Source: Clostridia bacterium (GTDB lineage Bacteria; Bacillota; Clostridia; Oscillospirales; Acutalibacteraceae). Taken from it: a stretch of 64,000 bases of DNA. Location: NCBI GenBank assembly GCA_017502085.1, contig JAFVVQ010000017.1:1-64000 (forward strand), given 5' to 3'. Below are positions 302 through 50,240 of this stretch, one piece after another (the stretch's first letter is position 1; each line of letters starts with the position of its first letter). Under the pieces are notes generated by a model. It had not been told where the DNA came from, did no database searches, and was given only the letters and a program-made list of their open reading frames with translations. The position numbers and the translations under genes were made by a program.

Positions 302-346
302 TGGTTGCGGAGACAGGATTTGAACCTGCGACCTCCGGGTTATGAG
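302..346 (-). other. attL core (displaced 3' part of tRNA-fMet)
   Basis: These 45 bp are identical to 30942-30986 and cover the tRNA from the anticodon loop through the CCA end. The match breaks at 347, inside the anticodon arm. The integrase gene starts its 3' end 44 bp away. The layout fits a tyrosine integrase that crosses over in the anticodon region and brings its own copy of the tRNA 3' half, leaving this fragment behind. Confidence 0.9.
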
Positions 347-389: not shown

Positions 390-1565
390 TCAACCTGTCT
401 GACTTGCATCTGACTTGCATTTTGATTTTTGCTTCAAAAATTCATCAAGTTTAACAATCGAGCGGGCCTTTTGAGCCTCCGAAAGATGAGTATATATTTT
501 CATAGTAGTATCGGCAGAAGCATGACCGAGAAGGTACTGTGCGGTAAGAACATCAACACCCGCTTCAAAGAGGATAGTCGCATACGTGTGCCTCAGATCG
601 TGCCAACCGAAGGGCTGAATTGTCAAAACAACTTCTTTCGGTTCACAATGCTTTTTTCTTCCGCTGCTTCCGAATTCACACTCAAGGTCAATCAGAAAAC
701 TTTCAAGCATTCGATTCCATCCATCAAGAGTCTGCATTTTATTTTTTGCAGAGGGACAGACATAAAGACTCGTCTTTGATTCTTTACGAAGGAAGTCGGA
801 CAAGGCAGAGGGCATCGAAATGACACGCACACCTGCGGCGGTTTTGGGAAGCTTCAATTCTTTTGCTTTGAAATCATAGCTTTTGTTTACGGTGATAGTG
901 TTATTTTCAAAATCAATGTCATTCCACGTCAAAGCAGTCATTTCTCCACGGCGCAGGCCTGCAAGCATAGCTATCATTGCGGCTCGTTTCCCTCTGTGTC
1001 CGGAGCTTAATGTGATAATATTATTTCGTTCCGATTCCGAAAGAGCACGTCTTTCGGATTTCTGAGCATTCTGAGGCATATCCGCAAATTCGGTAGGATT
1101 GAATTCAATAGCCCTGTTTTTTATCGCAAACTTAAAAACCTGAGAACAGACCTGCTTATATCCTACGATTGTTTTATGCGCTGATGGCTTACCTGTTGCC
1201 GGATTCCTTTTTGAAAGGTCGGTCAATGCCTCTTCAACCTGATAGACTTTTATGCTTTTGAGAGGAACTCCGCCGATGTAGGAATAAAAATATTCGATAC
1301 GTTTTTTCTTAGTATTATATTCAGATTCGGATAACTTGTTTTTCTGCGATGAAAGAAAAAGCTTTGCCCATTCTTCAAAGGTGTCTTTTTCTTTTGTAAT
1401 GTCAATCCCCTTCCCCAATGATGCACGCAACTCATCCGCTTTCTTCTGAGCTTCTTTTTGTGTTTTACCGTAGACGGTTTTATATTTTCGCTTACCGTTC
1501 TCGTCTTTTCCGAGATAAACCTGAATGGCAAACCTTCCGTCACTTCTGACTTGTTTTTTTGGCAT
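390..1565 (-). CDS. int: Tyrosine-family site-specific integrase
   Basis: Phage integrase of 391 residues. The N-terminal ~60 residues look like an AP2-type arm-binding domain (KDENGKRKYKTVYGKT), followed by a SAM-like core-binding domain and a catalytic domain. Visible active-site residues are Arg ~205 (AGLRRGE), the HDLRH motif (~322-326), LLGHAS (~348) and nucleophile Tyr ~358 (KIYTH). The ATG at 1565 is chosen over a TTG at 1598 because AAAGGGTG lies about 8 bp upstream of it. It is the first gene inside attL and reads toward it, as expected for a prophage integrated at a tRNA. The arm-type sites overlap its 3' end. Confidence 0.95.
   Translation of the reverse strand: MPKKQVRSDGRFAIQVYLGKDENGKRKYKTVYGKTQKEAQKKADELRASLGKGIDITKEKDTFEEWAKLFLSSQKNKLSESEYNTKKKRIEYFYSYIGGVPLKSIKVYQVEEALTDLSKRNPATGKPSAHKTIVGYKQVCSQVFKFAIKNRAIEFNPTEFADMPQNAQKSERRALSESERNNIITLSSGHRGKRAAMIAMLAGLRRGEMTALTWNDIDFENNTITVNKSYDFKAKELKLPKTAAGVRVISMPSALSDFLRKESKTSLYVCPSAKNKMQTLDGWNRMLESFLIDLECEFGSSGRKKHCEPKEVVLTIQPFGWHDLRHTYATILFEAGVDVLTAQYLLGHASADTTMKIYTHLSEAQKARSIVKLDEFLKQKSKCKSDASQTG
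401..420. promoter_or_regulatory. Left arm-type integrase sites (P arm)
   Basis: GACTTGCAT occurs twice in direct orientation (401-409 and 412-420) with an 11-bp period, 55 bp inside the attL core. The same 9-mer pair with the same period occurs near the right end at 30810-30829. Tandem direct repeats at both phage ends are the usual form of integrase arm sites. The left pair lies inside the last codons of the integrase gene. Confidence 0.65.
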
Positions 1566-1592
1566 AAAATAACACCCTTTCTTGAAAAATGG

Positions 1593-1706
1593 TTGCAAAA
1601 TTTCAAGCAGGATGCTATAATACTATTGCACTCCTGCTTACTGTGGTTGGTGGTGGGATTTGCGCTTCTTGTCTCCCGGTGTTGGCGCATCGGGAGACTT
1701 TTTTTT
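1593..1706 (+). ncRNA. Candidate small RNA between int and the DUF4236 gene
   Basis: On the plus strand TTGCAA (1593-1598), a 17-bp spacer and a perfect TATAAT (1616-1621) are followed about 50 bp later by a strong intrinsic terminator: stem GTCTCCCG (1671-1678) with CGGGAGAC (1691-1698), then eight T. No plus-strand gene lies between. The predicted transcript would be about 75-80 nt and antisense to the int leader region. The promoter also sits in an inverted repeat AAGCAGGA (1605-1612)/TCCTGCTT (1632-1639). The terminator is clear; a true sRNA is inference. Confidence 0.35.
1671..1706 (+). terminator. Strong intrinsic terminator (plus strand)
   Basis: An 8-9 bp GC-rich stem is followed by eight T residues. 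The T-run follows the hairpin only in the plus direction, although both neighbouring genes run leftward. It therefore ends an unannotated rightward transcript or blocks readthrough. Confidence 0.7.
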
Positions 1707-2493: not shown

Positions 2494-3108
2494 TTATCTT
2501 ATCAAACTGAAAAAAGCAACGGCTTTGCCGAGAATTCTTATTTCGGCAAGTTGCTCGTTAGAATAAATCAAATCATCATACATCGGATTGCAAGGTGAAA
2601 GAACAATCTTGTTCGAAAATTTATGAACCTTTTTCAATGTTGCTTCATCGCCTATTAGAACGGCTGCGATTTCTCCGTCCTCAACATCAGGTTGACTGCG
2701 GATATAAACGATATCTCCGTCAAAAATACGGGCATTAATCATACTGTCGCCTTTGCACTTGAGTGCAAAATCGGCAGGAATGCTCTCGTCAACCTTCACA
2801 AACATTTCTATGTTTTCGGTAGCAAGGATAGGCTCTCCACAAGCGATTGTGCCAAGCAGAGGAACATTTTTGAATTTAGGTAAAGAAAGGATATTGTCAG
2901 GAAGAGCCTCTTCCCATCCCATAAGAGCAGAAGGACTTACCTTGAGAATCTCTGCTAATTGAGAAATCCTTCCATGTCGCAAAGATTTAATATTTCCACT
3001 TTCCCAACGTTGGACCGTTGCTTCGGAAACTCCCATTTTATCAGCTATCTCAAGCAAAGTATAGCCAAGTTCTGAACGTCTTCTTTTTAATACATCTGAT
3101 AAAGACAT
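2494..3108 (-). CDS. CI/LexA-like repressor (HTH_XRE + S24 peptidase)
   Basis: A 204-residue lysogeny repressor. Residues ~4-65 form an XRE helix-turn-helix (LSDVLKRRR, DKMGVSEATVQRWESG). The C-terminal half is an S24 self-cleaving domain with catalytic Ser ~122 in GDSMINARIFDGD and Lys ~159 in EATLKKVHKF. The likely cleavage site is the Cys-Gly in TIACGEP (~90). SOS-linked self-cleavage is family knowledge, not shown here. The start at 3108 is chosen from GAGGTGATAAG just before the ATG; upstream in-frame starts lack such a site. It is divergent from the Cro-like gene across a 156-bp operator region. Confidence 0.93.
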   Translation of the reverse strand: MSLSDVLKRRRSELGYTLLEIADKMGVSEATVQRWESGNIKSLRHGRISQLAEILKVSPSALMGWEEALPDNILSLPKFKNVPLLGTIACGEPILATENIEMFVKVDESIPADFALKCKGDSMINARIFDGDIVYIRSQPDVEDGEIAAVLIGDEATLKKVHKFSNKIVLSPCNPMYDDLIYSNEQLAEIRILGKAVAFFSLIR

Positions 3109-3125
3109 CTTATCACCTCGACAAT

Positions 3126-3154
3126 ATATTATCACATTCTTTCGCATAATGCAA
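3126..3154 (-). promoter_or_regulatory. Leftward repressor promoter (P_RM-like)
   Basis: On the minus strand the -35 is TTGCAT (3149-3154), the spacer is 17 bp and the -10 is TAATAT (3126-3131). The repressor ATG is 18 bp beyond the -10. It overlaps the 17-bp operator at 3139-3155, which fits autoregulation. Confidence 0.65.
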
Positions 3155-3155
3155 G
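3139..3155. promoter_or_regulatory. Operator O1 (17-bp pseudo-palindrome)
   Basis: CTTTCGCATAATGCAAG. It shares the pattern CTTWCGYAWAAYGMAAG with 3228-3244 and 3478-3494. Further half-sites lie between them (CTTGCAATTTGCAAA at 3162-3176 and CTTTCGCAAAAAG at 3181-3193). Likely binding sites of the repressor and the Cro-like protein. Confidence 0.6.
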
Positions 3156-3195
3156 AAGAATCTTGCAATTTGCAAAAAAACTTTCGCAAAAAGTA

Positions 3196-3539: not shown

Positions 3540-3833
3540 ATGGCAGCAAAAAAATATACGTTCGATGCCTATTGGGAGAACCTTCCCGACGAACTGACAC
3601 CCGTCAACGTCGGAAATCTTCTTCAGCTTTCAGAGACCAACATCAACAAGAAGCTTAATTCGGGTGAAATACCCGGCTACAAAATCGGGGACTGTTGGCG
3701 CATTACCCGAGAAGAGCTTAAAGCGGATATTGAAAGCCGAAAGAACGATGAAGCCCGAAGAACATATCTGCTCAAAGAGCTTCAGAGAGTAGAAAGCCGC
3801 ATTCAGAAGAAGATATGTATCTTCGCACAGTAG
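3540..3833 (+). CDS. Small HTH_17/excisionase-family DNA-binding protein
   Basis: A 97-residue protein. Residues ~20-55 (LTPVNVGNLLQLSETNINKKL, then IPGYKIGDCWRITREEL) have the winged-helix pattern of excisionase/HTH_17 proteins, including the typical G-x-K-x-G-x-x-W-R-I segment. The C-terminus is a charged helix. AGGAGA precedes the ATG. As an early gene with this fold it may be the directionality factor for the integrase or a further early regulator; the sequence does not decide between them. Confidence 0.65.
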   Translation: MAAKKYTFDAYWENLPDELTPVNVGNLLQLSETNINKKLNSGEIPGYKIGDCWRITREELKADIESRKNDEARRTYLLKELQRVESRIQKKICIFAQ

Positions 3834-4123: not shown

Positions 4124-4169
4124 AACATTGATGTAATGTCAATTAATATAAAATTCAAGGAGGAAAAAT

Positions 4170-4781
4170 ATGAATCACATTGAAATTAACGGCATCAAAA
4201 TCGAGCTTAACGAAGCTCAGACTAAACAGCTTGCGGAGAGTTTTGCACTTGATTGCAAGCAGAAAAGACTTGCAGATTATTCAAAAAGCGAGGCAGTAAG
4301 AATCGGCGAATCAGAGTTTATTGTGCTTGAGCAGGAAAATGGCAGAACATATCTGCTACTCAAAGGATTGCTTACAGAAAGCACCGAGTTCGGCACAAAT
4401 AACTATTATGACGGCAGTAATGTTGACGAAATCTGCAACGATTTTGCTGTTGAGCTTATGAATGCGGTCGGAGAAGAGAACGTTCTTCCGTTCACGGTTG
4501 ACCTTACCGCAAACGACGGTCTGAAGTGCTACGGAACTATTGAAAGAAGGGCTGCTCTGCTTACTGCGGAACAGTACCGCAAGTATGTGTATATCATTGA
4601 TGAACAGAAGCTTGATAAATGGTGGTGGTTGGCAACACCATTCAGCACGGCAAAGCACAATGATACAGAATGCGCTCTTTGCGTTTCGCCCGACGGCATC
4701 ATGAGCTACTACGGCTTCAACAACAGTGTCGGCGTTCGCCCGTTTTGTATCTTAAATTCTAATATCTTTGTATCTGATTAA
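4170..4781 (+). CDS. Retroelement variable protein 1 (C-type-lectin-like, DUF6273-like)
   Basis: A 203-residue protein without signal peptide or membrane segment. The C-terminal ~60 residues have the C-type-lectin/DUF6273-like pattern WWWLATP, CVSPDG, GVRPF found in many retroelement targets. The variable repeat covers codons 175-187: the 12 mutable codons now encode D, I, M, S, Y, Y, G, F, N, N, S, V, framed by invariant SP and GVRP. The ~140 N-terminal residues would be the scaffold; it shares VGEENV and DLTxxDGLK motifs with variable protein 2, so the two are paralogues. RBS AGGAGG. Ligand unknown; with no tail-fibre domain or secretion signal, a cytoplasmic or virion-minor role is possible. 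Confidence 0.85.
   Translation: MNHIEINGIKIELNEAQTKQLAESFALDCKQKRLADYSKSEAVRIGESEFIVLEQENGRTYLLLKGLLTESTEFGTNNYYDGSNVDEICNDFAVELMNAVGEENVLPFTVDLTANDGLKCYGTIERRAALLTAEQYRKYVYIIDEQKLDKWWWLATPFSTAKHNDTECALCVSPDGIMSYYGFNNSVGVRPFCILNSNIFVSD
4676..4743 (+). repeat. Variable repeat VR1
   Basis: These 68 bp align without gaps to the template repeat 5715-5782. In the core there are 10 substitutions (4 A>T, 6 A>G), all where the template has A. The flanking TCTTTGCGTTTCGCCCG on the left and GGCGTTCGCCCGT on the right are unchanged. The right block, containing the small palindrome GGCGTTCGCC, is the candidate initiation-of-mutagenic-homology sequence. Confidence 0.95.
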
Positions 4782-4792
4782 GGAGAATGAAA

Positions 4793-5314
4793 ATGAGCAA
4801 AGTGATTGATAATGGCGCAACATTTGAGGTTGCAGGAATTGAGTTCATAAAGTTTCCCTATACTGACGGAATGGTGGCAGCGGTTGCAAGAAATATACTG
4901 TTTCGCTCGACTTTCGGAGAAAACAATAACCTTACAACAAGCAAAGTCTTGAGAACCTTGCAGTCAGAAATCCTGCCTTCAATTATCAAGACTATCGGTG
5001 AAGAAAATGTATGCGAATTCGAGACGGACCTTACAACCCTTGATGGTCTGAAACCTTATCCTGTACTTGAATCAAAAATCAGTCTGCCGACACTTGATTT
5101 TTACAGACAGAATGTCGAGATCTTTGATAAATACAAAGTCAATTCGTGGTGGTGGCTTGCAACTCCCGAAAGTTCGGATGAACACAGCAATTCAAACTGG
5201 ACTCTTTGCGTTTCGCCCGGCGGCGGCATTTACTGCAACTTCTACAACTTCATTAGCGGCGTTCGCCCGTTTTTAATCTTTAAATCTTCTATCTTTGAAT
5301 CTTTTTTAAAATGA
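4793..5314 (+). CDS. Retroelement variable protein 2 (paralogue of variable protein 1)
   Basis: A 173-residue protein of the same C-type-lectin-like/DUF6273-like class: WWWLATP, LCVSPGGG, GVRPF. Variable codons are residue 143 and residues 145-155, now G, then G, I, Y, C, N, F, Y, N, F, I, S. It is distinct from protein 1 in the N-terminal half but shares IGEENV and DLTTLDGLK. The ATG at 4793 is 7 bp after AGGAG; the ATG at 4787 is too close. The stop overlaps the start of the Avd-like gene (ATGA), so the two are translationally coupled. Two tandem targets served by one template let the phage hold two independently diversified binders. Confidence 0.85.
   Translation: MSKVIDNGATFEVAGIEFIKFPYTDGMVAAVARNILFRSTFGENNNLTTSKVLRTLQSEILPSIIKTIGEENVCEFETDLTTLDGLKPYPVLESKISLPTLDFYRQNVEIFDKYKVNSWWWLATPESSDEHSNSNWTLCVSPGGGIYCNFYNFISGVRPFLIFKSSIFESFLK
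5203..5270 (+). repeat. Variable repeat VR2
   Basis: These 68 bp align without gaps to the template 5715-5782. There are 12 core substitutions (5 A>G, 7 A>T), all at template adenines, and several differ from those in VR1. Both flanks match the template and VR1. Independent mutation patterns in two repeats show that the element has been active. Confidence 0.95.
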
Positions 5315-5688
5315 ATGATAAAAACGAAACCGAATTAAAGGTGATTGTTAAGGCCAAACAGCTTGCATCTCATACTTTTACACTTACATCAAACTGCAAT
5401 CGGTATCCGAAAAAGTACAGACATTCGCTTGTAGATAGAATTCAGTTGAAAAGCCTTGATATTTATGAAAAATTGTTTGAGGCCAACAGAATCAACAACA
5501 GGGTTACTAAAGCATTGCGGTGTGAAACCATAACGCAGGCGATTACTTACTGTGACGAGCTTCTGTTTTTCATCGAGCTTTCCATGGAACTGAAGCTTCT
5601 GAACGGAGATTCTGCTGCTTACTGGAGTAAAATGGTCCATGATGTTAAGTATATGGCAATAGCATGGAGAACCAAGGAGCAAAAATAA
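5311..5688 (+). CDS. avd: Avd-like accessory variability determinant
   Basis: A 125-residue, helix-rich, basic protein. Length, four predicted helices (LVDRIQLKSLDIYEKLFEA, then ALRCETITQAITYCDELLFFIELSMELK) and position between variable gene and template match the Avd/23S-rRNA intervening-sequence four-helix bundle family. In characterised retroelements Avd forms a pentamer that binds the reverse transcriptase and template RNA and is needed for cDNA synthesis (family knowledge). Its ATG overlaps the stop of variable protein 2 and lacks its own Shine-Dalgarno site. Confidence 0.85.
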   Translation: MNDKNETELKVIVKAKQLASHTFTLTSNCNRYPKKYRHSLVDRIQLKSLDIYEKLFEANRINNRVTKALRCETITQAITYCDELLFFIELSMELKLLNGDSAAYWSKMVHDVKYMAIAWRTKEQK

Positions 5689-5714
5689 GATCTTGGGTTA
5701 TGCGTTGTATTTTT

Positions 5715-5782
5715 TCTTTGCGTTTCGCCCGACGGCAACATAAACTACAACAACTACAACAACAATAACGGCGTTCGCCCGT
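5715..5782 (+). ncRNA. Template repeat (TR) of the retroelement
   Basis: A non-coding 68-bp near-copy of VR1 and VR2 lying between avd and the reverse transcriptase gene. The core holds 21 adenines in 12 codon-equivalents: seven AAC, one AAT, two TAC, one GAC, one ATA. None can become a stop codon by mutating A, and AAC/AAT give the widest amino-acid range. This is the hallmark of an adenine-mutagenised template. Just beyond the right border the template reads CGTATT where both VRs read CGTTTT. The 107-nt spacer to the RT start (5783-5889), with hairpin CCTTT-CCG-AAAGG, probably forms part of the template RNA. Confidence 0.95.
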
Positions 5783-5889
5783 ATTGGTGGAAAGCTCGAC
5801 AGAGTAGGCATAAGCCGAAAACCATGCGCCACATCAAAAGAACGCATAACCTTTCCGAAAGGATAAACAAAAAAAAGGAACTGTGTTGC

Positions 5890-6924
5890 ATGACAGACTT
5901 TGAAAAGGTAATAGAATTCGAAAATATGTATAAGGCTTACCGGAAATCTAAAAGCGGAAAGGGTTTCAAGAAAAGCTCCGCAAGGTTTTCGGTTATGGCT
6001 CTGGACGGTATACATTCCCTTATAGAACAGTTGGAAAACAAAACATATACCGTTTCAAAATACAATGAATTCAAGGTTTATGAGCCGAAAGAGCGGCTTA
6101 TCCAAACAACGTCATTCAAAGACAAGGTTGTGCAACACAGCTTATGCGACAACGTACTTTTACCCCGTATGCAGGAAATATTCATTCTTGATAACTGCGC
6201 AGGGCAAAAAGGGAAAGGCACGTTATTCGGGCTTGACCGTTTAAGTATGCATATGCTTGATTTTTACGGCAAAAACGGACATAACGGCTACATTCTAAAA
6301 TGCGATATAACAAAATTTTTCTACAACATTTCTCATCCGCAACTTAAAGATATTATTAGATACCATTTCGGATATGACAAAGATATTTGCTGGTTATGCA
6401 ATCTGTTTGTTGACAGCACGGAAGGCAAGGGCATCCCGCTCGGCAATCAAATCAATCAGGGACTTGCCCTTCTCTATCTTGATGGTATGGATAAGCTTAT
6501 AAAATACGAGCTTGGGATTGAGTATTACGGACGGTATATGGATGACTTTTATCTGATTCACCCTAATAGAGAATATCTTAAGTATTGCTTATCAGTAATA
6601 ACAGAACACCTAAAAACACTTGACCTTACTCTTAACGAAAAAACGCAGATATTTCCGTTTAAAAACGGTGTCAGCTTTCTTGGCTTTCATACTTATATAT
6701 CCAAAGACGGTAAGGTAATACGTAGGGTTAAGAACGAGAACAAACGGAACGCACAGCGCAAGTATTTAAAAATGGCGAAAATGGTTGCAAATGGCAGATT
6801 GCCTGCGGAAAAATTCGATGCCTCATATCAGGCTTATAAGAATCATTTATCGCACGGCAATTGCTACGGACTGTCAAAGGCGCTTGATGAAAGAATCTGT
6901 AAAGTTATACCGCAAAAAGAATAA
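5890..6924 (+). CDS. Diversity-generating retroelement reverse transcriptase
   Basis: A 344-residue single-domain reverse transcriptase with no maturase or endonuclease domain, which excludes a group II intron. Catalytic YMDD is at residues 216-219. Motif 4 is LGNQINQ (184-190), matching the [I/L/V]GxxxSQ-type signature of these RTs except that Asn replaces Ser; other bacterial RTs usually have QGxxxSP. It copies template RNA with adenine-specific errors, and the cDNA replaces VR sequence. The ATG at 5890 is 9 bp after AAAAAGGAA; upstream in-frame starts would overlap the template spacer. It is followed by hairpins at 6925-6953 and 6983-7011. Confidence 0.95.
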   Translation: MTDFEKVIEFENMYKAYRKSKSGKGFKKSSARFSVMALDGIHSLIEQLENKTYTVSKYNEFKVYEPKERLIQTTSFKDKVVQHSLCDNVLLPRMQEIFILDNCAGQKGKGTLFGLDRLSMHMLDFYGKNGHNGYILKCDITKFFYNISHPQLKDIIRYHFGYDKDICWLCNLFVDSTEGKGIPLGNQINQGLALLYLDGMDKLIKYELGIEYYGRYMDDFYLIHPNREYLKYCLSVITEHLKTLDLTLNEKTQIFPFKNGVSFLGFHTYISKDGKVIRRVKNENKRNAQRKYLKMAKMVANGRLPAEKFDASYQAYKNHLSHGNCYGLSKALDERICKVIPQKE

Positions 6925-7523: not shown

Positions 7524-7737
7524 AGACAGGATTGAGCCCGTTTGCCGCGGATGCCATTACCGAAGAAATATCGGAAACGAACAGTATTATAACGGAGAAT
7601 CCAAGCGTGACAGCTCATGCGATTATTTGATAATCGAAGGCGAGCCCCGATGCTGTCAACCGCAAGGCAACTTCTGTGAGAAATTTAAGTCGAGAACTGT
7701 TTTGACAAGGAACAGAAAGCTTTTGATATTAAATTAA
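7495..7737 (+). CDS. Small Cys-rich protein, possible zinc-binding
   Basis: An 80-residue protein with cysteines in CRGC, SSCDY, RCC and FCEKF, a spacing that suggests one structural zinc site. The start lies inside the previous gene. Proteins of this type are frequent in Clostridia phage early regions; the function is unknown. Confidence 0.55.
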   Translation: MSTKKKIQPKDRIEPVCRGCHYRRNIGNEQYYNGESKRDSSCDYLIIEGEPRCCQPQGNFCEKFKSRTVLTRNRKLLILN

Positions 7738-7756
7738 AATTCAAGGAGAAAAAAAT

Positions 7757-8107
7757 ATGGTTAATGCTGTAATAGCAAAAATAGAAGCTCAACAGGCAGG
7801 GCTTGATGAGTTTGAAGCCGCTTATCAGGTGGGTGAGCAGCTTAAAGATATCTGCAGGAGCTGTCCAGAACAGGCAGAATTGATTCTTCACGATCTTGAC
7901 AATCCTCAGATGTCAATCGTAAAAGCGGAAAAGAAAATCAAAGAATTTGCCGATAAACATAAAACCGGCAGAAGTGCATGTGTTCCACCAAAGGTTGCCG
8001 ACAAAATCCTCAGAGAGTTTTACGGACTTGCAGATTCCCCGAAAGAAACAAAAGCTGATTCGGGCAAATCCGAGGGCGGCATTATTGATCTTGCAGATTT
8101 CCTGTGA
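7757..8107 (+). CDS. PcfK/AcrIIA9-like small protein
   Basis: A 116-residue protein. An N-terminal helical domain (GEQLKDICRSCPEQAELIL), a middle basic helix (IVKAEKKIKEFADKHK) and the segment VADKILREFYGL resemble the PcfK/AcrIIA9 family. It ends in an acidic IIDLADFL tail after a Ser/Lys-rich linker. The next gene encodes a PcfJ-like protein, and PcfK-PcfJ pairs are common on mobile elements. Some family members inhibit Cas9, but that cannot be inferred for this one. The family call is by pattern only. Confidence 0.45.
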   Translation: MVNAVIAKIEAQQAGLDEFEAAYQVGEQLKDICRSCPEQAELILHDLDNPQMSIVKAEKKIKEFADKHKTGRSACVPPKVADKILREFYGLADSPKETKADSGKSEGGIIDLADFL

Positions 8108-30941: not shown

Positions 30942-31018
<77 letters not shown>

Positions 31019-41045: not shown

Positions 41046-44000
41046 TTACCCGACAACTCTGCCGAGCTCATCGAACGTGTAGTTCATTTCAACGGAAAGA
41101 CCGTTTGTTTCCCAGGCATAATATGTTCTGTTGACAGCAAGTAATCCGTCTTTGATGATGAAATAGTAATAACCGTCTATGTAGTTGAGACCTACTCTGC
41201 CGGGTTTACCCTTTTCATAATAGTATCTTTCGCCGTTCTTTTCAAAGAAACCGTCACGCATCTTACCGTCAGGTCCGAATTCATAATCGCCCTCGGGAAG
41301 AAGACCGTTATGCTTCCATACATTGATAGTCTTATCAACGGCAAGTTCACCGTTTGCACCGATTGCGTAATAGTAAGCACCGTTATACTCAACCAGGCCG
41401 TAGGATTCAGCCACACCGTCAATATAGAAATAAAGAACTCCGTTCTTATCAACGATTCCGTCAAGCATTCTGCCGTCAGCTCCGAATTCATATTCACCTG
41501 CAGGAAGTATTCCGTTGCCAACGCTGACATGCTGCTTCTTACCGACGGTCAGTTCACCGTTTGAGCCCTCAACATTGTAATACGCACCGTCGTATTCAAC
41601 CAGACCCGCCTTCATCGGCTTACCGTTTTCATAATAACAAAGAACACCGTTCTTATCAACGATTCCTCTGAGCATTCTGCCGTCAGCTCCGAATTCATAC
41701 TCCGCTTCGGGAAGAATTCCGTTCCCCTCCCAGACATATTTCTTCTGGGCGACAATGATTTCGCCGTTTGAGCCACCCGCGAAGTAATATTCGCCGTCAA
41801 TCTCAACCAGACCTGCGGCTTTTGCCTTGCCTTTCACGTAATAGTAAAGGGTACCGTTCTTGTTTACAATACCGTCAAGCATCTTGCCGTCGGGGCCGAA
41901 TTCGTAATTGCCCATCGAAAGAAGTCCGTTGGTCTCGCTGACATACTTAACGGCATTGACTGTCAATTCACCGTTTGAGCCGCTTGAGTAATAGTAATCA
42001 CCGTCTATCAGCAGGAGACCCGCTCTCTTGGGCTTACCGTTTACAAAATACGTAAGAACACCGTTCTTATTTACAATACCGTCAAGCATCTTGCCGTCGG
42101 GGCCGAATTCATAGGAAGCTTCGGGAAGCAGTCCGTTTGTCTCCCATGCATACTGGACCTTGTTGGTTACAAGCTCACCTTCACCGCCTGCAAAATAATA
42201 GTATCCGTCAACATAAACCAGGCCGGCTGCCTTTGCTTTGCCGAGTTCATAATAATAGAGTGTACCGTTTTTGTTTACAATACCGTCAAGCATTCTGCCG
42301 TCGGCACCGTATTCATAGTTGGTGGCGGGAAGCAGACCGTTTGTTTCCCATGCATACTGGACTTTGTTGGTTACCAGCTTACCATCACCGCTCGCGAAAT
42401 AATAATAACCGTCTTCATAAACAAGACCTGCGGCTTTGGGTCTGCCCTTATAGTAATAAATCTTTTCTCCGTCGATTTCATAAATGCCGTGAAGTGCCTT
42501 ATAATCATCGCCGAAGGTGTAGACGCCCGTGGGAAGGTCGCAATGTGTTTCTGCCGCATACTCCTTACCCTTGACCGCCTTGCAACGGTAATCAAACAGA
42601 TAATACGCTCCGTCAATCTCATGGAGACCCTCAAGCGCTATACCGTTAACAACGTAACTGAGAGAACCGTCTGCATCATTGTAGAAACCGTCAGGAATTA
42701 TTTCATCCTTGCAGATGCCGTCAGTGCCAAAATCATACCACGTATAGAACTCACTGTTTGATTCCTGAACACAACGTATGCCCTCATATCGGTAACCGCC
42801 GTAGAAATAGTATCTGTTGCCATCAATAGTCAACCATCCACGCTGATGGAATGACGGACCATAATAATATCTTGTGCCGAATACACATTTTGCCCAAACG
42901 CCTGAAACGAGTCTGCCGTTTTCTTCAAACTCATATTCGACGGCGCCAACCTTATATTTACCTTCTCTTGCGGCCTTTGTATCGGAATGGAAGTAATACC
43001 AATCCTCACCTATCAACTGCCAACCGGTAACAAGTTCGCCGAGCTTTGCATAGCGATAAAGAGAATCTTTTTCGTCGCAGAATACACCGGTGAATTTCGT
43101 TTGTCCGACGTTGATTCCGTTCTCTCCGAAATCGTAATAATATCCGTCGACAAGCTTTATACCGGTATACTTTTCGCCGTCTGCATAATATGCAAAGCCA
43201 CCACCTTCGTTCACCCAACCTTCCTTGATTGCTTTTGAAAGCGTATATGTGTCGGTGAACGATGAATAAACAGCGCCGAACCAACCGCCTTTTTCATTTT
43301 CATCACTGGGATTAACAAAGGGATAAATACCATAGTTCTGCTGATTTTCAGTCTTATTCGCGAAGGAGTAAAGAGCGGTTGCACGCATATAAACTTTATA
43401 GCTGACCTCTCCGCTGTGAACTGCCGCAATTCTGTCATTCTTCCACTCGGCATCTGCTTTCGGAGTGAGCTTGATTCCGCTGAGAATGCAAAGCGGGTTA
43501 GCCATCGCGGGGTCAATCGCCTGAGTCTGGTCAATCCAGTTAAGAGTCAGAGTCAGAGTGTTTGTATCCTCGTCAAACTCTGTTGAGGTAAGTGCGAAAT
43601 AATCGTTGATAACCTTCATTTCCGAATAATCAACGTCAAATCTGCTGTCGATAACAACAGTGGGCTTGACCTGCGTAAGAACACTTACCCTTTCTGCAAG
43701 CTGCATAAGGAATGTCCATGCTGATGCATTTTCAAGTTCTGCACCCGGCAGAAGCGATGTGAGCTCTTCGAGTTGCTCCGGAATGGGTATCTGCGTCATA
43801 TCGATAGCAAACGAATAGCTTGTTTCCATCGGTTTTTCCGGATCTATTGCTTCGTAGAGGTTATTATCCTCTGTGACGGAATTGCTGACCTCTCTGTACC
43901 AGGCAAAGGTTCTGTCTCCGCCCGTTGCCTGATCGAAATCGAATGAAAGCTCGCCCTGGTTGTAAAGTGAAATAACAACCGATGCCGTTACACTGTCATC

Positions 44001-47000
44001 CGCTGCAAGAGCTGCGTAAACAGTCAGATTCTTGATACCGGTGCCATCTGTTCCGATGAAGTACGAGCCATCAATAACACCCGCATCATTGTTGCTCAAC
44101 GTAAATACAACGTCATTCTCTGCAATTGTAACGGGTTTGTTCTCATAAAGCGCAATAATCGGAAGTTCTGTTTTCGCACCGTAAACAGTATCGATATTGG
44201 TCTTGGAGAAATAGATTCTGTCGGGAACAACAACATTAAGTGTAATCGTTCCGAGAACGTCTTCACCGAGCATCAGATTCACGTCAACCGAGCCGTTTCT
44301 CAATGCGGTGAACACACCGTCGGCTGTAACGGTACCCCACTTTTCATCAGAAACCATCCATGAAGTGCCTTCAGGAAGCGGAGCTGAATTGCCGGTTGCG
44401 CTGACACCCGAAGCGGTAAGCTGAACAGAGGCACCCTTTGTAAGATAATCAGTTTCGCTCTCTATAACAGCGTGATCGAATGCAGTTGAATTGGGAGCAG
44501 TCGAGACCATAATGAGTGACGTACTGACAGAACGTGAAGTACCGTCGGAAGGCTTGTTGACAACCTTCAGTTCATCCGTACCTTCAGGCTTTGAAACGAA
44601 CGTTGTTGATCCGCCACCGTCAAGGTTGATAGCTTCAACGCAGCCCGCTTCATACAGAATATGAGCGATTTCAACCATACTGCCGCCGCAGGAGACAGGT
44701 TCCTGTCTGCCGTCAAGCACCATAAACACAACCTTGCCCGTTCTCGTTATGCCGATAGCCGTACGGCTGTGGCGGGTTGTGTAATAGCTTGAATCTTTGC
44801 TGATTTCAATCTCACCGTTTTTGATGAGTCTCGAGCCAAATCCGCCGACAGCTTCCTTGAGCTGACCTTTATAGATAGTGTTATACTCTTCCGTTGTGCC
44901 GATAATTGCTTTGCCGTCCTTGGTGATACCGAAGAATCCGTTTGCACTCGGACCGTGGTACTCCTTACCGTCCATAACAAGAAGACCGCCCGGCTCACCG
45001 GTACTCATATTATAGCCGTCACCGTTGATTGAGGCAATAACGTTATAATTTTCAACGTAATGCTCGCTTTCGGGATTGCCGTATTTTTCCTGAGCTGCGT
45101 TTGCCTGAGTAAGAACAGGTTGCATACCCCATTTGGTGGGGTCGTTATCCTTATAGTTTGCAAAAATATGAACGTCGTCTCTTGTCAGGTCAGCGGTAGC
45201 AGTGTAGAATACCATCTGCTTGTTATCCGCGGAAGTTGCGTGTTTGATATTCTGAACAATACCCGGAGCAAGATTCGAGGTTTCAGATGCAAAAACAGTG
45301 AAATAGGGGTTCGCTGTGTTTTCAACGTAGTCACCCGCAAGAGAACAGATATAATCTGCAAAGGCATAGCAACAAGCCTTTCTCAGGTCTGCAAGATTGT
45401 TTGTTTTAAACTCTCTGGTCGCCTCGAGGGTAGTTATCATTTTATTACCCGTATATGCATTATAGACGGCATTACGGATATCCTGCCTTGTGCTTACGCC
45501 GCCAAGTCTGTTCTTGAGGAAATAATCCGCTCTGCTCTCAAGTGTGAGTTCTTCGGTGAAATATTCCTCAAAGAGTGATGTAATAAAGAAATCGGAATAA
45601 GTTTTGCCGATAATGTTATTCATCAGATAAAGTGCATCCATGTCGGCATAAATATCCTGCTGATTGAAGCCGCCGACTTCATCGGGGTTATCCTTGAGCA
45701 GATAGTCCTCTGAAACGGTTTTAATCATTTCATCAAGGCTGCCGTCCGTTCCGCCGTAATCGGAAAATTCAATGAGGTCAACAATATCACCCGCCCAACC
45801 TGCAACGTCTGCATGGTTGCGGCTCTTTTTATTATGATATGTGATATCCATTGCACCAAACATATGGCCGAAATCAACGAGGTCGCCGTTGGGAAGTTCG
45901 AAAAGTTCAATATTCTTCATTTCGCTGACAATGATGAACTCTTCGATGCCTTCCATCGAGTTATATTCATCCTCAACTCTGGCAACATAATCGGCGAAAC
46001 CTTTATCTTCATAACCCGCCATAATGCCCCATGAACCGTCAACATAATCCTCAACACCCGTTCTGATATACTTGATAACAAGCTCTGCGGGGTCTTTGCC
46101 GGGAACCTCAGTTGCATAGGAAATTGCCATTTCCTCAAGCAGGGCAAGATTAATCATAAAGGTTTCAAAATCAACAATACCTTCCGATTCAAGTCTCGGA
46201 ATTTCAACACGGGTTGAATATGCACAGCGTGTACACTTTTCGTGAGCTTCCCAGCCGACACTTGTATAGGTGGGTGCCTTTGCGGGAACTTCAACAATGT
46301 TATGACCGAGCGCAGGAATTACCTCTTGTTCTGCAAGAACTTCGTCGCATACAGAACAATGGCTGCCGTCTGTAAGACCTTCATCCTCACAGAATGCGGG
46401 AATTCCCTCATCGATTACCGGAGTATGACCAAGAGCCTGACCCTCGGTATAACCGCAAACCGAACAATGCGAAGCAGTTGTGCAAGTTGCCGCCACCATA
46501 CTGTGGCCCATTGCAACTGACTCGGATTCAATATACTGATAGCGGCAACGGGAACAAGTATAAACGGTAATACCGTTTTCCGTACATGTTGCCGGCGTTT
46601 CTGTTTTGGAAAGTTTATGTTCAAGCATCGGAGCGATCTCTGTGCCGCACTCAGTGCAGAACTGTGCATTTGTGCAGGTTGCTCTTCTGCCCGGAGTGTG
46701 TCCCTTTGCGGGTGAAACAATTTCACCGCACTTGAGACAAGTCTGTGCTTTATCGCAGGTTGCACTTTCCCCTGCCGTATGCCCCGTTGCATCCGCAAGC
46801 ACATCTCCGCAATCCGTACATAACTGTGCCTGGGTGCAGGATGCCGCCTTGTCGGGAGTATGCCCCTTGGGTGCAGTCTGCGAATCAGTATAACTGTCTC
46901 CGCAGTTGAGACAAGTATGAACTGTATATCCCATAGTTGAGCAGGTGGGAAGTATTGTCTGTGTTCTGTAATTATGACCCTTTGCGGGTGCGATTTCAGC

Positions 47001-50000
47001 AAAACACTCAGTACATATCTGATTATGCGTACAGGTTGCCGCCGCTCCCGGGGAATGACCCTTTGCGGGAAGCACGTGGCTTCCTTCCGAATATCCGCAT
47101 CTTGTACAGTGACTGCCTGAACTGTAACCGTCATCAAGGCAGGTAGGCTCTACCGAATCAAGATGAACGGTTTCGTGACCGAGAGCAGCTTTGAGTTCTA
47201 TGCCGCAAACGGTGCAAATCTGAGCCTCGGTGCAAGTCGCTGAAGCACCCGGAGCATGACCGTTTTCAGCTTTGATAATATCGCCGCACACGGTACATGA
47301 CTGAGGCTCTGTGCAGGTAGCTTCGGCGCCCGGAGTATGTCCGTTTTCGGGAACCACTGAATCGGTATACGAGTCACCGCAAACCGTACACTTGTGAGTT
47401 GTGAAACCTTTTTCCGTACAGGTAGGTGCGGTCACCGTATGGGAATAGCTGTGACCCTTTGCATCGGAAAGCATTTCGCCGCATACGGTACAGAATGATT
47501 TTTCAGTGCATGATGGTGCTTTATCAGGTTTATGACCGAGTGCAGCAACCTCACTGTTAACGGTAACCTCTCCGCATTTCGAACAGGTATGGGTTGTATA
47601 ACCTTTTTCCGTACAGGTCGGTGCGGTCACAACGGAAACGTACTTGTGCCCGAGAGGCGCTTTGAGTTCCTTACCGCAGGTAAGACATATCTGTGCATCC
47701 GTGCAAGTTGCGTCATCGCCGTGCTTATGACCCGTTGCGGAAATCTTCTCTGTGTAGGTGCTTCCGCAGAAACAGGTGAAGGTTCTGACACCGTCATTCT
47801 CGCAATCAGGCTGCAAAGTTACGGAAGAACTATATTGATGAGCGGCATGATCTTTCCAAATACCGCCGTTATAAACACTTGTTGATGAAGACGCCGTCTG
47901 CTCCTTATATGTACCGTCAGCATTCTTCAGTTTTGCGGGAGTAAGTCCGATATTGGAATATCCTGTGCCCTGAACAAGCTGATAAGTTGCGGTCTGGGTG
48001 CCTTTTTTCAGTCTTGCTTCACCTTTTTCTCCACCGCAGATATCCGCTCCGCCGACAGTAGTATAAAGATAACCTTGTGATGCGTCCAGCAAACCGTCCA
48101 CACGGATTTTTGCATCCTTGAGATCAGACGCCTTGCGGTTATATTTTCTGCCCGGGGCATAAGTCAACGGAATAAACGGCTTATTATATGCGCCGCAGAA
48201 ATTACCCCATTCAGCTGAATCATAAAGATAAACATTGGTACCCGAAGCAAGAATACAGCTTCCGTTTTCGCCGATTATGATTTCGGCACCGGGAAGAAGC
48301 GAAACATCCTGAGAAAGAATTACTTTACCGCTCGCAACGTTAACTGTTATATTGCCGTTGATAGGAAGCTCATAATTTTTGGAATTGATTTTTGTTGAAA
48401 GAATGCCGGAACCGATTGAGAGCTCTATGGGACTTATCGACATTTCGCCGTTAAGCTCAAAAACCAGTCTGTCGGTATTGACGTCATAATATTTTGTGAC
48501 CGTACCCGACGAAAGATTGAACATTGCTCCGCTTTTCGCAAAGACCTCAACACCTGCACCGAGATTCATGTTCGAAATGCACATGGTTGTATAACAGCTT
48601 TCAACCGCACCCGATTCGATGGTCAAAGGTACTTCGATATTCTGAATATAATACTGCGAAAGCGGGAAAACGCCGTTTTTCATATCAGAGGTCTGGCTTC
48701 CGCCTCTGAAGTCCATTACCTGGAAATATTCATAAACGGATGAACCGTTTTTAGCCGTAACACTGCCTGAGCCTGTAATAAAACCGTAGGCATAAAGTGC
48801 TGCACCTCTGTTGACTGTAATACTGCTGCCCTCATGCATTTTAATGAAGCTGCAGGCACCGTCGGGTGAGCCCGTATCCGTTCTGCCGCCGACTGCCGAA
48901 TAATGCTTTGCCGGCAGACTCAGAACGCCGTTAACCGTAATATGAGCGCCGGTTGACATTGTGAGTGTGCGGTATGCGGTCGGTGCGGTATGAGTTCCGC
49001 TGACGCATTCGGGAACGGTTGTATAAACAGTATGTGCATCGTCAAACGGAACAAGCAACGTTACACCCGCCGGAACCGTATAGTTGCCCGCCGGAAGCGT
49101 TGCATTGTTCATAAGAACAACCGTTTTCGACCCTGCATTTGCGGCATAAGCCGCTGCTTCGTTAAGGTCATCGAAAAGATATTTTCCGCCGTCAACGAGA
49201 AAATACGGAGTTGAAATCTTACCGCCGAAAACAGCCTTGACGGTCATTGCCGATGCCGGTTTCAGAACGTATTCTTTGTTTGTCGAAAGAACTCTGTTGT
49301 CGAGTGCATCAACCCACGCAACAAACTCGGTACCTACGGCGGGAGTTGCAACAAGCTTTGCGCCCGACTTGAAGCTGACGCTCTTTGATGAGCCCGCAGT
49401 TACGTCGGCGCCGTCAACCGTCACCTTTCCCGATGATGAATCAAAGCTGAATACGATATCGGAATTATCAGTTGCGGGAACAAGACTGAAATTATTCAGA
49501 ACAAGTGTTGCAGTTTTACCCGCATTCGCCTTGATTGTTATGGTGATGTTTTTATCGGGTTCGAGAACAACAACATATTTGCCTTTTGTTCCGCTTTCGC
49601 TGAAAGAACTGAAACCCGATGCACTGTATTCAAACCTCAGTGTTGCCGCAGTTGAAGAATTATTATAAATATCAACCGTATTGGTCTTGGCAGAAAGTGT
49701 ACTGCCCTTTGCGGTAATTGTTACGGAATCGCCCGAAACAACACCCGTGCCGAGTGAATCAGTAACAAGAACTTTGCCGCCGAGCACACTGTTTGTACCC
49801 GCCGCCTGAAGAACGGGATTGAGTACGGAATCGACTGTATCATAAAGAATACCGAGTGACTTTGCCGTATCAGTCGCAAAGAGCATTTCCTTTTCCTCTT
49901 CGCCAAGACCGTTCCACACGGGCTGAAGAGAATCTATATCCTCCTTTACACGGAGCATAGTTTCTTCATCCATCGCATAAACAGCGCTGACTATCTCCTC

Positions 50001-50240
50001 CTCCGAAAGAAATTCAGGGCCGAGATAGCGTATCATAACTTTGTTCATTTCTATCAGCGCCGACCAAAGCGGGTTACCCTGCGACAAGTCGGCAATTTCT
50101 TCAAGAATCTCCGACCCTGCAGTCTGACCCGCCTCTTTTCCCGTTTCGGGAGATGGCTGAATCGGTGCAGACGAAAGCATAACTATTACCGACATCAGCC
50201 ACGATATCAGCCTTTTAAAGATGATCACTGTTGTTGTCAT
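41046..50240 (-). CDS. Giant secreted NAGPA-type phosphodiester glycosidase with Cys-rich and C-terminal repeats
   Basis: A 3064-residue protein. Signal peptide at ~1-30. A beta-rich region spans ~150-800. Seventeen Cys-rich modules (~820-1350) follow: 16 CxxC plus one CxC, alternating with 'GHTPG..ATCT' type linkers. A helical domain lies at ~1350-1700. The NAGPA phosphodiester glycosidase domain is at ~1730-1910 (INGDGYNMSTG, GGLLVMDG, RTAIGITRTGKVVFMVLDGR, NLDGGGSTT), then Ig-like segments and seven ~66-residue repeats (~2560-3060; YEFGPDGKMLDGIVNKNG type) resembling choline/glucan-binding repeats. No LPxTG or C-terminal membrane helix, so it is probably held to the wall by the repeats. 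It may trim or modify polymer phosphodiesters. It overlaps the Wzy-like gene by 4 bp (ATGA). Confidence 0.85.
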   Translation of the reverse strand: MTTTVIIFKRLISWLMSVIVMLSSAPIQPSPETGKEAGQTAGSEILEEIADLSQGNPLWSALIEMNKVMIRYLGPEFLSEEEIVSAVYAMDEETMLRVKEDIDSLQPVWNGLGEEEKEMLFATDTAKSLGILYDTVDSVLNPVLQAAGTNSVLGGKVLVTDSLGTGVVSGDSVTITAKGSTLSAKTNTVDIYNNSSTAATLRFEYSASGFSSFSESGTKGKYVVVLEPDKNITITIKANAGKTATLVLNNFSLVPATDNSDIVFSFDSSSGKVTVDGADVTAGSSKSVSFKSGAKLVATPAVGTEFVAWVDALDNRVLSTNKEYVLKPASAMTVKAVFGGKISTPYFLVDGGKYLFDDLNEAAAYAANAGSKTVVLMNNATLPAGNYTVPAGVTLLVPFDDAHTVYTTVPECVSGTHTAPTAYRTLTMSTGAHITVNGVLSLPAKHYSAVGGRTDTGSPDGACSFIKMHEGSSITVNRGAALYAYGFITGSGSVTAKNGSSVYEYFQVMDFRGGSQTSDMKNGVFPLSQYYIQNIEVPLTIESGAVESCYTTMCISNMNLGAGVEVFAKSGAMFNLSSGTVTKYYDVNTDRLVFELNGEMSISPIELSIGSGILSTKINSKNYELPINGNITVNVASGKVILSQDVSLLPGAEIIIGENGSCILASGTNVYLYDSAEWGNFCGAYNKPFIPLTYAPGRKYNRKASDLKDAKIRVDGLLDASQGYLYTTVGGADICGGEKGEARLKKGTQTATYQLVQGTGYSNIGLTPAKLKNADGTYKEQTASSSTSVYNGGIWKDHAAHQYSSSVTLQPDCENDGVRTFTCFCGSTYTEKISATGHKHGDDATCTDAQICLTCGKELKAPLGHKYVSVVTAPTCTEKGYTTHTCSKCGEVTVNSEVAALGHKPDKAPSCTEKSFCTVCGEMLSDAKGHSYSHTVTAPTCTEKGFTTHKCTVCGDSYTDSVVPENGHTPGAEATCTEPQSCTVCGDIIKAENGHAPGASATCTEAQICTVCGIELKAALGHETVHLDSVEPTCLDDGYSSGSHCTRCGYSEGSHVLPAKGHSPGAAATCTHNQICTECFAEIAPAKGHNYRTQTILPTCSTMGYTVHTCLNCGDSYTDSQTAPKGHTPDKAASCTQAQLCTDCGDVLADATGHTAGESATCDKAQTCLKCGEIVSPAKGHTPGRRATCTNAQFCTECGTEIAPMLEHKLSKTETPATCTENGITVYTCSRCRYQYIESESVAMGHSMVAATCTTASHCSVCGYTEGQALGHTPVIDEGIPAFCEDEGLTDGSHCSVCDEVLAEQEVIPALGHNIVEVPAKAPTYTSVGWEAHEKCTRCAYSTRVEIPRLESEGIVDFETFMINLALLEEMAISYATEVPGKDPAELVIKYIRTGVEDYVDGSWGIMAGYEDKGFADYVARVEDEYNSMEGIEEFIIVSEMKNIELFELPNGDLVDFGHMFGAMDITYHNKKSRNHADVAGWAGDIVDLIEFSDYGGTDGSLDEMIKTVSEDYLLKDNPDEVGGFNQQDIYADMDALYLMNNIIGKTYSDFFITSLFEEYFTEELTLESRADYFLKNRLGGVSTRQDIRNAVYNAYTGNKMITTLEATREFKTNNLADLRKACCYAFADYICSLAGDYVENTANPYFTVFASETSNLAPGIVQNIKHATSADNKQMVFYTATADLTRDDVHIFANYKDNDPTKWGMQPVLTQANAAQEKYGNPESEHYVENYNVIASINGDGYNMSTGEPGGLLVMDGKEYHGPSANGFFGITKDGKAIIGTTEEYNTIYKGQLKEAVGGFGSRLIKNGEIEISKDSSYYTTRHSRTAIGITRTGKVVFMVLDGRQEPVSCGGSMVEIAHILYEAGCVEAINLDGGGSTTFVSKPEGTDELKVVNKPSDGTSRSVSTSLIMVSTAPNSTAFDHAVIESETDYLTKGASVQLTASGVSATGNSAPLPEGTSWMVSDEKWGTVTADGVFTALRNGSVDVNLMLGEDVLGTITLNVVVPDRIYFSKTNIDTVYGAKTELPIIALYENKPVTIAENDVVFTLSNNDAGVIDGSYFIGTDGTGIKNLTVYAALAADDSVTASVVISLYNQGELSFDFDQATGGDRTFAWYREVSNSVTEDNNLYEAIDPEKPMETSYSFAIDMTQIPIPEQLEELTSLLPGAELENASAWTFLMQLAERVSVLTQVKPTVVIDSRFDVDYSEMKVINDYFALTSTEFDEDTNTLTLTLNWIDQTQAIDPAMANPLCILSGIKLTPKADAEWKNDRIAAVHSGEVSYKVYMRATALYSFANKTENQQNYGIYPFVNPSDENEKGGWFGAVYSSFTDTYTLSKAIKEGWVNEGGGFAYYADGEKYTGIKLVDGYYYDFGENGINVGQTKFTGVFCDEKDSLYRYAKLGELVTGWQLIGEDWYYFHSDTKAAREGKYKVGAVEYEFEENGRLVSGVWAKCVFGTRYYYGPSFHQRGWLTIDGNRYYFYGGYRYEGIRCVQESNSEFYTWYDFGTDGICKDEIIPDGFYNDADGSLSYVVNGIALEGLHEIDGAYYLFDYRCKAVKGKEYAAETHCDLPTGVYTFGDDYKALHGIYEIDGEKIYYYKGRPKAAGLVYEDGYYYFASGDGKLVTNKVQYAWETNGLLPATNYEYGADGRMLDGIVNKNGTLYYYELGKAKAAGLVYVDGYYYFAGGEGELVTNKVQYAWETNGLLPEASYEFGPDGKMLDGIVNKNGVLTYFVNGKPKRAGLLLIDGDYYYSSGSNGELTVNAVKYVSETNGLLSMGNYEFGPDGKMLDGIVNKNGTLYYYVKGKAKAAGLVEIDGEYYFAGGSNGEIIVAQKKYVWEGNGILPEAEYEFGADGRMLRGIVDKNGVLCYYENGKPMKAGLVEYDGAYYNVEGSNGELTVGKKQHVSVGNGILPAGEYEFGADGRMLDGIVDKNGVLYFYIDGVAESYGLVEYNGAYYYAIGANGELAVDKTINVWKHNGLLPEGDYEFGPDGKMRDGFFEKNGERYYYEKGKPGRVGLNYIDGYYYFIIKDGLLAVNRTYYAWETNGLSVEMNYTFDELGRVVG

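Follow-up and report, generated by a model that had tools for sequence, protein, structure and literature searches.

The stretch of DNA examined here, called the window, comprises 64,000 nt of contig JAFVVQ010000017.1 from a Clostridia bacterium (GCA_017502085.1) and raises the question of what kind of element is formed by the genes at positions 4170-6924 and in which setting its targets are varied. We consider it very probable that this cassette is a diversity-generating retroelement (DGR) of a temperate phage with two targets, because mismatches between its template repeat (TR) and its variable repeats (VR1 and VR2) fall only at adenines, its reverse transcriptase (RT) belongs to the DGR clade, an Avd gene is present, the fold of the TR RNA covaries, and two relatives, L142 and L143, differ in VR2. 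Loci of relatives are given L numbers, and papers cited by PMC number are drawn on for the passages that bear on this locus.

The cassette and its adenine-limited repeats

Target 1 (T1), target 2 (T2), Avd, TR and RT are all intact and open on the same strand (Table 1), in accordance with an earlier note on this DNA, which had described the element as a full prophage-borne DGR with two targets. The two targets are tandem paralogues, and the Avd ATG overlaps the T2 stop codon. Two measurements given in the earlier note had to be corrected: the repeat is 71-72 bp long instead of 68 bp, and the starts of VR1 and VR2 are 527 nt apart, whereas the targets had been placed at a distance of 521 bp. 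Non-adenine sites are fully identical between the TR and either VR, and the claim that both VRs have diverged with different patterns of adenine replacement holds. Across 60 TR-VR pairs of the family (rows L142, L119, L147 and L015 excluded), 633 of 1207 TR adenines were changed as compared to 28 of 2797 other bases, i.e., a non-adenine change of about 1%.

Natural change of VR2 was observed between L142 and L143, different IMG/VR entries whose RT is 57% identical to that of the window: over 11,957 aligned bp they show 12 differences, every one at TR adenines of VR2, with TR and VR1 identical and the VR2 of L143 shared by L141 and L144. VRs are thus not invariant in all related genomes. The pair L118/L119 was rejected as an example of VR1 activity, since both substitutions lie at 5298-5299, before VR1 (5332). 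Given that T1 and T2 are tandem paralogues, TR and VRs might be regarded as ordinary gene-conversion copies or tandem duplications with a chance adenine bias; however, this explanation can practically be dismissed, as the 72-nt repeat is also present in the TR outside the targets and the adenine bias extends across the 60 pairs, so that this bias and the L142/L143 difference already refute it.

The relation of each VR to its own TR was assessed in the 20 of 29 two-VR cassettes in which both repeat ends could be anchored. At non-adenine sites, agreement with the own TR was 0.98 on average for VR1 (lowest 0.70) and 0.92 for VR2 (lowest 0.46), whereas the TRs of other cassettes agreed less (0.81 and 0.77, respectively), and no other TR matched better than the own one for VR1 in 19 and for VR2 in 16 of the 20 cassettes (strictly best in 18 and 15), which is what overwriting of VRs from the local TR would produce. 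No further VRs were found in the host genome (84.5% complete), nor did further DUF6273 matches over the limit occur there. TR adenine 5783 (in CCCGTATTG) is represented by T in 19, G in one and A in one of the 21 VRs with the same context and looks like a fixed TR/VR difference marking the end of transfer, which would account for one mismatch in each window pair; therefore, 21 mutable adenines in 12 codons are left. The 633 changed adenines comprise 347 A>G, 246 A>T and, rarely, A>C (40). Among 447 AAY codons the outcomes were Tyr in 82, Gly in 66, Asp in 59 and Ser in 49, with 91 still coding for Asn, which partly resembles the bias of the enzyme of phage BPP-1 for AAC toward Tyr and Ser (PMC12875486).

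An 11-pair helix (5695-5706 with 5841-5852) surrounds the TR in 27 relatives including the window; five of its pairs are changed on both sides and 99.7% of the cells pair. For the whole TR fold, 27 double-change cells were counted as compared to 4.8 ± 1.9 in shuffles and at most nine in slid versions. The 3' arm of the helix falls within the opening codons of the long RT frame, and the conserved TGTATGACCGA (in the window TGCATGACAGA) comes after it; therefore, and because part of 5824-5889 belongs to the conserved RNA structure and ATG 5890 is itself conserved, translation of the RT probably starts at this ATG (MTDFEKV).

Relatives were gathered by RT and Avd searches; 55 loci with Avd followed by RT were taken, of which 37 were left after removal of 18 near copies. 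The genome matches are mostly from Clostridia, several of them from ruminant guts according to their titles. Two targets are present in 30 of the 37 loci, one in four (L052, L115 and L131 with intact flank, and L120, cut by the contig end) and none in three (L053, which is cut, and L153 and L056, both outside the clade); L126 was left out of the T1 counts and L132 does not belong to the 37 loci. The two targets are thus real, but the rarity ascribed to them by the earlier note was overrated, as two targets are found in about 13% of DGR cassettes (PMC10743442) and several VRs in 28.6% (PMC6642488). In the RT tree, 90 DGR-type rows were set apart from three group II/Cas1 RTs (100/99), and the window RT falls within the DGR RTs in a clade of 34 rows (98/99), as the note had expected; in this tree, L110 repeats the window, L109 repeats L130, and some branches outside the window clade are long. 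The second targets of the inner clade form one group without exception (21 rows, 100/100), and all its first targets fall together with the three single ones (24 rows, 98/92); therefore, the two-target state is old in the inner clade and T2 was lost at least twice. One simple duplication for the inner clade together with the L139-L150 group was rejected by the target tree, and a single duplication is claimed for the inner clade only.

The best solved-structure match of the window RT was the reverse transcriptase 8ub7 (6e-27), which we take to be the BPP-1 DGR enzyme. PADLOC returned generic RT matches for the window RT and a weak T2 match to HEC-01A (0.0017), which was given no weight. The domain-4 motif of the (I/V/L)GxxxSQ type is represented in the window RT by LGNQINQ, a listed variant and not the strict SQ form; the Asn variant pointed out before is real, but less unusual than supposed, since NQ replaces SQ in 24 of the 103 unique RT rows gathered (a few of them near copies) and in 22 among the 37 Avd-RT rows, and since SQ is found in about 90% of described DGR RTs with NQ and AQ as listed variants (PMC3521204). 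Separately, each of the loci L022 (6975-11062), L058 (2788-7017) and L071-L073 holds two distinct DGR-type RT genes separated by about 2 kb, possibly two DGRs side by side.

Is the window element still working? A decaying or silent DGR, in which the VR differences are old, appears improbable to us, even though several findings speak against an active element. Among 13 groups of near-identical relatives, at least one VR was comparable in 11, and 10 of these showed no VR change. In L126, T1 is split into two tblastn pieces and looks damaged, and L132 carries targets and Avd with an RT match absent from its 11-kb locus, so that this DGR may have lost its RT. In L147, TR and VR1 are equal over 64 nt (5263-5326 and 6394-6457) and VR2 has more adenines than the TR; it seems that the template was overwritten by VR1 or that the repeats were collapsed by assembly. 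Near copies of the window element were likewise missing (no exact TR in viral contigs, best match by Avd 79%), and scanning for the exact TRs of three relatives brought up no further copies. On the other hand, all cassette genes of the window are open, TR-RNA pairs have been kept through double changes, agreement between TR and VRs at non-adenine sites is complete in the window, and L142 and L143 differ in VR2 only. Because no near copy of the window element was found, its own activity is something we infer and do not observe.

Table 1. Features of the DGR cassette and of the prophage that carries it (window coordinates)
Feature	Position	Strand	Description
Target 1 (T1)	4170..4781	+	DUF6273 protein, 203 aa; PF19789 1.2e-7, phrog_9958 1e-36
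VR1	4676..4747	+	11/11 TR mismatches on TR adenines, over 72 nt
ATCT array 3' of VR1	4749..4775	+	ATCT at 4749, 4764, 4772; variant ATTCT at about 4756
Target 2 (T2)	4787..5314	+	DUF6273-related, 175 aa; phrog_9958 1e-27; PF19789 0.027, below cut-off
VR2	5203..5273	+	13/13 TR mismatches on TR adenines, over 71 nt
ATCT array 3' of VR2	5276..5302	+	ATCT at 5276, 5284, 5291, 5299
Avd	5311..5688	+	125 aa; phrog_3206 "Avd protein of DGR" 1.3e-21; bAvd PF22296 0.0024, below cut-off
5' arm of helix closing TR RNA	5695..5706	+	11 pairs, 99.7% paired in 27 sequences
TR	5715..5786	+	72 bp; 22 adenines
3' arm of helix closing TR RNA	5841..5852	+
RT	5890..6924	+	probable start; frame open from 5824; RVT_1 1e-14, phrog_1423 8e-105; LGNQINQ, YMDD
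attL	302..346	.	45-bp direct repeat, copy of tRNA-Met end
attR	30942..30986	.	within tRNA-Met 30942-31018 (minus strand)
Tyrosine integrase of prophage	390..1598	-	phrog_1 3e-72
CI/LexA-type repressor	2494..3189	-	phrog_4 2e-40; UmuD-like C-terminal half
HTH_17/excisionase-like early gene, upstream of cassette	3540..3833	+	HTH_17 2e-7; phrog excisionase 1.5e-5

An ATCT array 3' of the variable repeats

The earlier note was silent on two features of this locus, namely the early-gene location and the arrays of ATCT units that follow both VRs with spacings of 8, 7 and 8 nt, the second unit after VR1 being a variant. No such array follows the window TR, and 5276-5302 is the sole window site on either strand with three strict ATCT units at 7-8 nt spacing. 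In T1, the codons AAA TCT AAT ATC TTT GTA are invariant among the sequences sharing the respective residue (24-32 of 32 sequences), in proteins that are only 28-54% identical to window T1. Mean codon homozygosity exceeded expectation by 0.44 at the T1 end and 0.40 at the T2 end as compared to 0.02 in the rest of both genes, and no rise was found at the Avd end (0.05 vs. 0.03); these last-20-codon stretches partly overlap the VR, where codons are TR-derived, and a test after the last Arg-Pro avoids most of this overlap.

As the array sits in the coding end of T1 and T2 in this clade, it might reflect a constraint on codons or on the protein at the DUF6273 C-terminus and be no signal at all. We regard this as very unlikely, since a synonymous-codon null was far exceeded in both genes: 67 spaced pairs were found in T1 (32 genes) as compared to 1.8 ± 1.4 (maximum 8), and 45 in T2 (30 genes) as compared to 1.4 ± 1.3 (maximum 7). 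Furthermore, 23 distant DGRs (deduplicated from 47; frame set by script in 18) carry 54 ATCT and 25 spaced pairs in the 60 nt after the VR as compared to 17.3 and 0.5 in shuffles, with two ATCT and no spaced pair after the TR and four and none before the VR. At least three ATCT were present in 10 of the 18 with a frame, and in eight of these 10 the units run past the stop codon. DUF6273 homologues from host-family genomes served as a control: 26 of 30 could be anchored, and 24 of the 26 had no spaced pair. Of the two that did, L200 has a partial Avd about 100 bp away. The other, L192, has five ATCT units; its RT match is confined to another contig, neither a TR was found in its 2.5-kb locus nor an Avd in its genome, and it is possibly a remote or orphan DGR target. 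Among the four that could not be anchored, L214 shows by eye two ATCT 7 nt apart, with neither Avd nor RT found in the genome, and L217 has an adenine-biased repeat (8/9) and no ATCT in the stretch shown. L192 and L214, which carry ATCT units with no DGR found nearby, lend the constraint explanation some support; the array is thus commoner at DGR targets than elsewhere, but its restriction to them is not proven.

The array was also found in BalMu-1, Lagaffe and nd12 and in weaker form in nd4, was absent from BPP-1, VP58.5, phiARM81mr, Versailles and Shimadzu, and appears, as judged by eye, in a CTCT form after the VR in Brigit, Toutatis and Lelie. Known DGR target signals are the initiation of mutagenic homing (IMH) sequence and the hairpin (PMC3240598; PMC12875486). 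A hairpin 3' of the VR (stem of at least 7, loop of 3-5, simple scan) was detected in one of 63 clade targets as compared to seven of 23 distant DGRs; the GC hairpin/cruciform at this place is a feature of the BPP-1 type and does not define DGRs overall. A hairpin formed from GGCGTTCGCC at the VR end was rejected, as by eye it is not kept in relatives. No description of the ATCT array was found in a literature search of open-licence PMC papers. The array is therefore put forward here as a candidate signal that may act in homing; DGR target choice and cDNA integration are incompletely understood, and its appeal as a directly testable candidate lies in its presence after the VR and not the TR, its conservation where the hairpin is absent, and its lack in most non-DGR DUF6273 genes.

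Following this, we propose that the TR RNA, closed by the 11-bp helix and held by a 3' spacer, would be copied into cDNA by the RT together with Avd with errors opposite adenines, and that this cDNA would replace VR1 or VR2, with the 3' ATCT array marking the site, and so give rise to variant surfaces on two proteins with a putative C-type-lectin-like fold.

Targets in the early region of a prophage

The cassette lies inside a 30.7-kb prophage integrated in tRNA-Met, bounded by a 45-bp identical repeat at 302 and 30942; this prophage also encodes terminase, portal, head, tail and endolysin genes. It is located downstream of the repressor and the excisionase-like gene and upstream of early genes, not among the structural genes. 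A 27-nt leader with a ribosome-binding site occurs before T1 (4142-4168) and, with 89% identity, before the early gene at 7757 (7728-7754); a scan with the leader pattern gave two sites as compared to 0.02 expected, which, as the pattern was built from both copies, shows only that there are no further sites. A promoter scan (12 found, 10.0 expected) was given no weight. Left of attL, at 1-301, two near-identical units of about 148 bp each start with a tRNA-Met-end fragment and resemble remnants of earlier integrations. Outside the prophage, at 41046-50240, a minus-strand open reading frame (ORF) of 3064 aa encodes phosphodiester glycosidase, choline-binding and immunoglobulin (Ig)-like domains.

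T1 is a DUF6273 protein by sequence and T2 remains below the Pfam cut-off. The DUF6273 domain has been modelled as a C-type lectin (PMC10743442), and a solved-structure search with T1 gave no match up to E = 1. With the targets placed in the early region, it may be that T1 and T2 form a co-kept pair that acts early in infection or induction, inside the cell, against changing partners; we consider the chances of this to be evenly balanced. A virion role, in which T1 and T2 are receptor-binding or decoration proteins as in BPP-1 or of the Hoc-like type and their position is incidental, would compete with the intracellular part only and has a real, somewhat smaller chance of being correct. In three clades, the majority of viral DGR targets carry a tail-protein annotation (PMC8144416), and T1 has a C-terminal match to PHROG "Hoc-like head decoration," but this match is limited to the lectin-like end. 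No tail domains were found in T1 and T2 by Pfam and PHROG searches.

The neighbourhood of the cassette was surveyed in 27 pooled relatives; of the 188 families upstream and 138 downstream, the 25 most frequent on each side were considered. Upstream, the commonest were repressors and regulators, SSB, ParB, methyltransferases, helicases and replication proteins, and downstream replication initiation (nine of 126 ORFs), HNH and terminases; neither tail families nor head families other than terminase were among the 25 commonest on either side, which argues against a virion role. Some observations weigh against an intracellular pair, namely that terminase genes stand close to or after the cassette in several relatives, and that the early timing and location of T1 and T2 are read from gene order alone. 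Hydropathy revealed no signal- or membrane-like segment in T1 and T2 (T1 maximum 1.04), but virion proteins, too, do without such segments.

Phages with a large target beside the RT provide a further argument against the virion role of the small ones. In the records of Brigit, Toutatis, Lelie, nd12 and nd4, a small DUF6273 target lies about 41, about 37, 14, about 12 and about 10 kb from the RT, respectively. In Brigit, Toutatis and nd4, this small gene with its remote VR is found near regulators, recombination, replication or SSB genes; the neighbours are unnamed in Lelie, which is collinear with Toutatis, and in nd12. Remote VR mismatches fall at TR adenines in 15 of 16 cases in Lelie, 13 of 13 in Toutatis and seven of eight in Brigit. 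Brigit gp06 (L157, 3948-4559) and Toutatis gp24 (L158, 5749-6396), annotated as hypothetical or DUF6273, are actually remote DGR targets; the targets named in PMC5883640 are a Hoc-like one in Brigit and, in Toutatis, one with no function assigned. Second targets far from the RT are already known as such (PMC8143477), also for Lelie and the nd phages (PMC11792537; PMC10743442), but no discussion of early, intracellular target roles was found in the passages of these three papers, and no description of early DGR targets in the search of open-licence PMC papers.

Taken together, the reading that goes furthest holds that the array is an undescribed cis signal for target recognition, including that of remote targets, which replaces the hairpin in this clade, and that the whole DGR serves a co-kept early intracellular pair varying against host factors such as defence proteins, and not against receptors. 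As a whole it is tentative and, in our judgement, rather unlikely. If phages indeed hypermutate early, cell-internal proteins, DGRs would take part in intracellular conflict beyond host recognition, and a probable function could be assigned to many small DUF6273 early genes that now carry no label.

Relation to known DGRs

The BPP-1 DGR (mtd-avd-TR-brt) shares with the window the order target-Avd-TR-RT, the adenine-specific VR (17 of 17 mismatches at A when called by the same script) and Avd, with an RT identity of 28.5%. However, BPP-1 has one target, a tail protein encoded next to structural genes, and a GC hairpin 3' of the VR without an ATCT array, whereas the window has two small early-region targets and ATCT arrays without such a hairpin. 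Closer to the window are the tentaclin phages nd4 and nd12, in which two DUF6273 targets depend on one TR (PMC10743442) and whose second targets, nd4_tgt2 and nd12_tgt2, are single-domain DUF6273 proteins with the VR at the 3' end, modelled as C-type lectins (PMC10743442). The nd12 RT is 50% identical to the window RT, and regular ATCT units stand 3' of both VRs in nd12, with one spaced pair per target in nd4. In both phages, an Ig-domain target lies beside the RT and the small one at the distance given above, whereas the two window targets are both small, are paralogues and stand in tandem with the DGR.

DUF6273 targets with a small second one in the early region are likewise present in the Faecalibacterium phages Lelie, CP11, Toutatis and Brigit (PMC11792537; PMC5883640), CP11 being known from the paper only; these phages differ in that RT and large target are located in the late region, and in Lelie, Toutatis and Brigit the units after the VR are, by eye, of the CTCT type. 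The Bacuni phages of Bacteroides uniformis also have two targets, one of them far from the RT, but these are DUF1566/fimbrial-tip-like proteins presumed to act in adhesion (PMC8143477). Several VRs depend on a single TR, as in the window, in the multi-target DGRs of Treponema and others, but their gene families differ, as do the cellular hosts (PMC10743442; PMC6642488). Hence the kind of DGR, the two targets and the NQ motif were already known and the early-region two-target clade is a variant, while the natural VR2 change in a relative, the ATCT array after the VRs and the recurrence of the T1-T2-Avd-TR-RT unit in a supported RT clade are new here.

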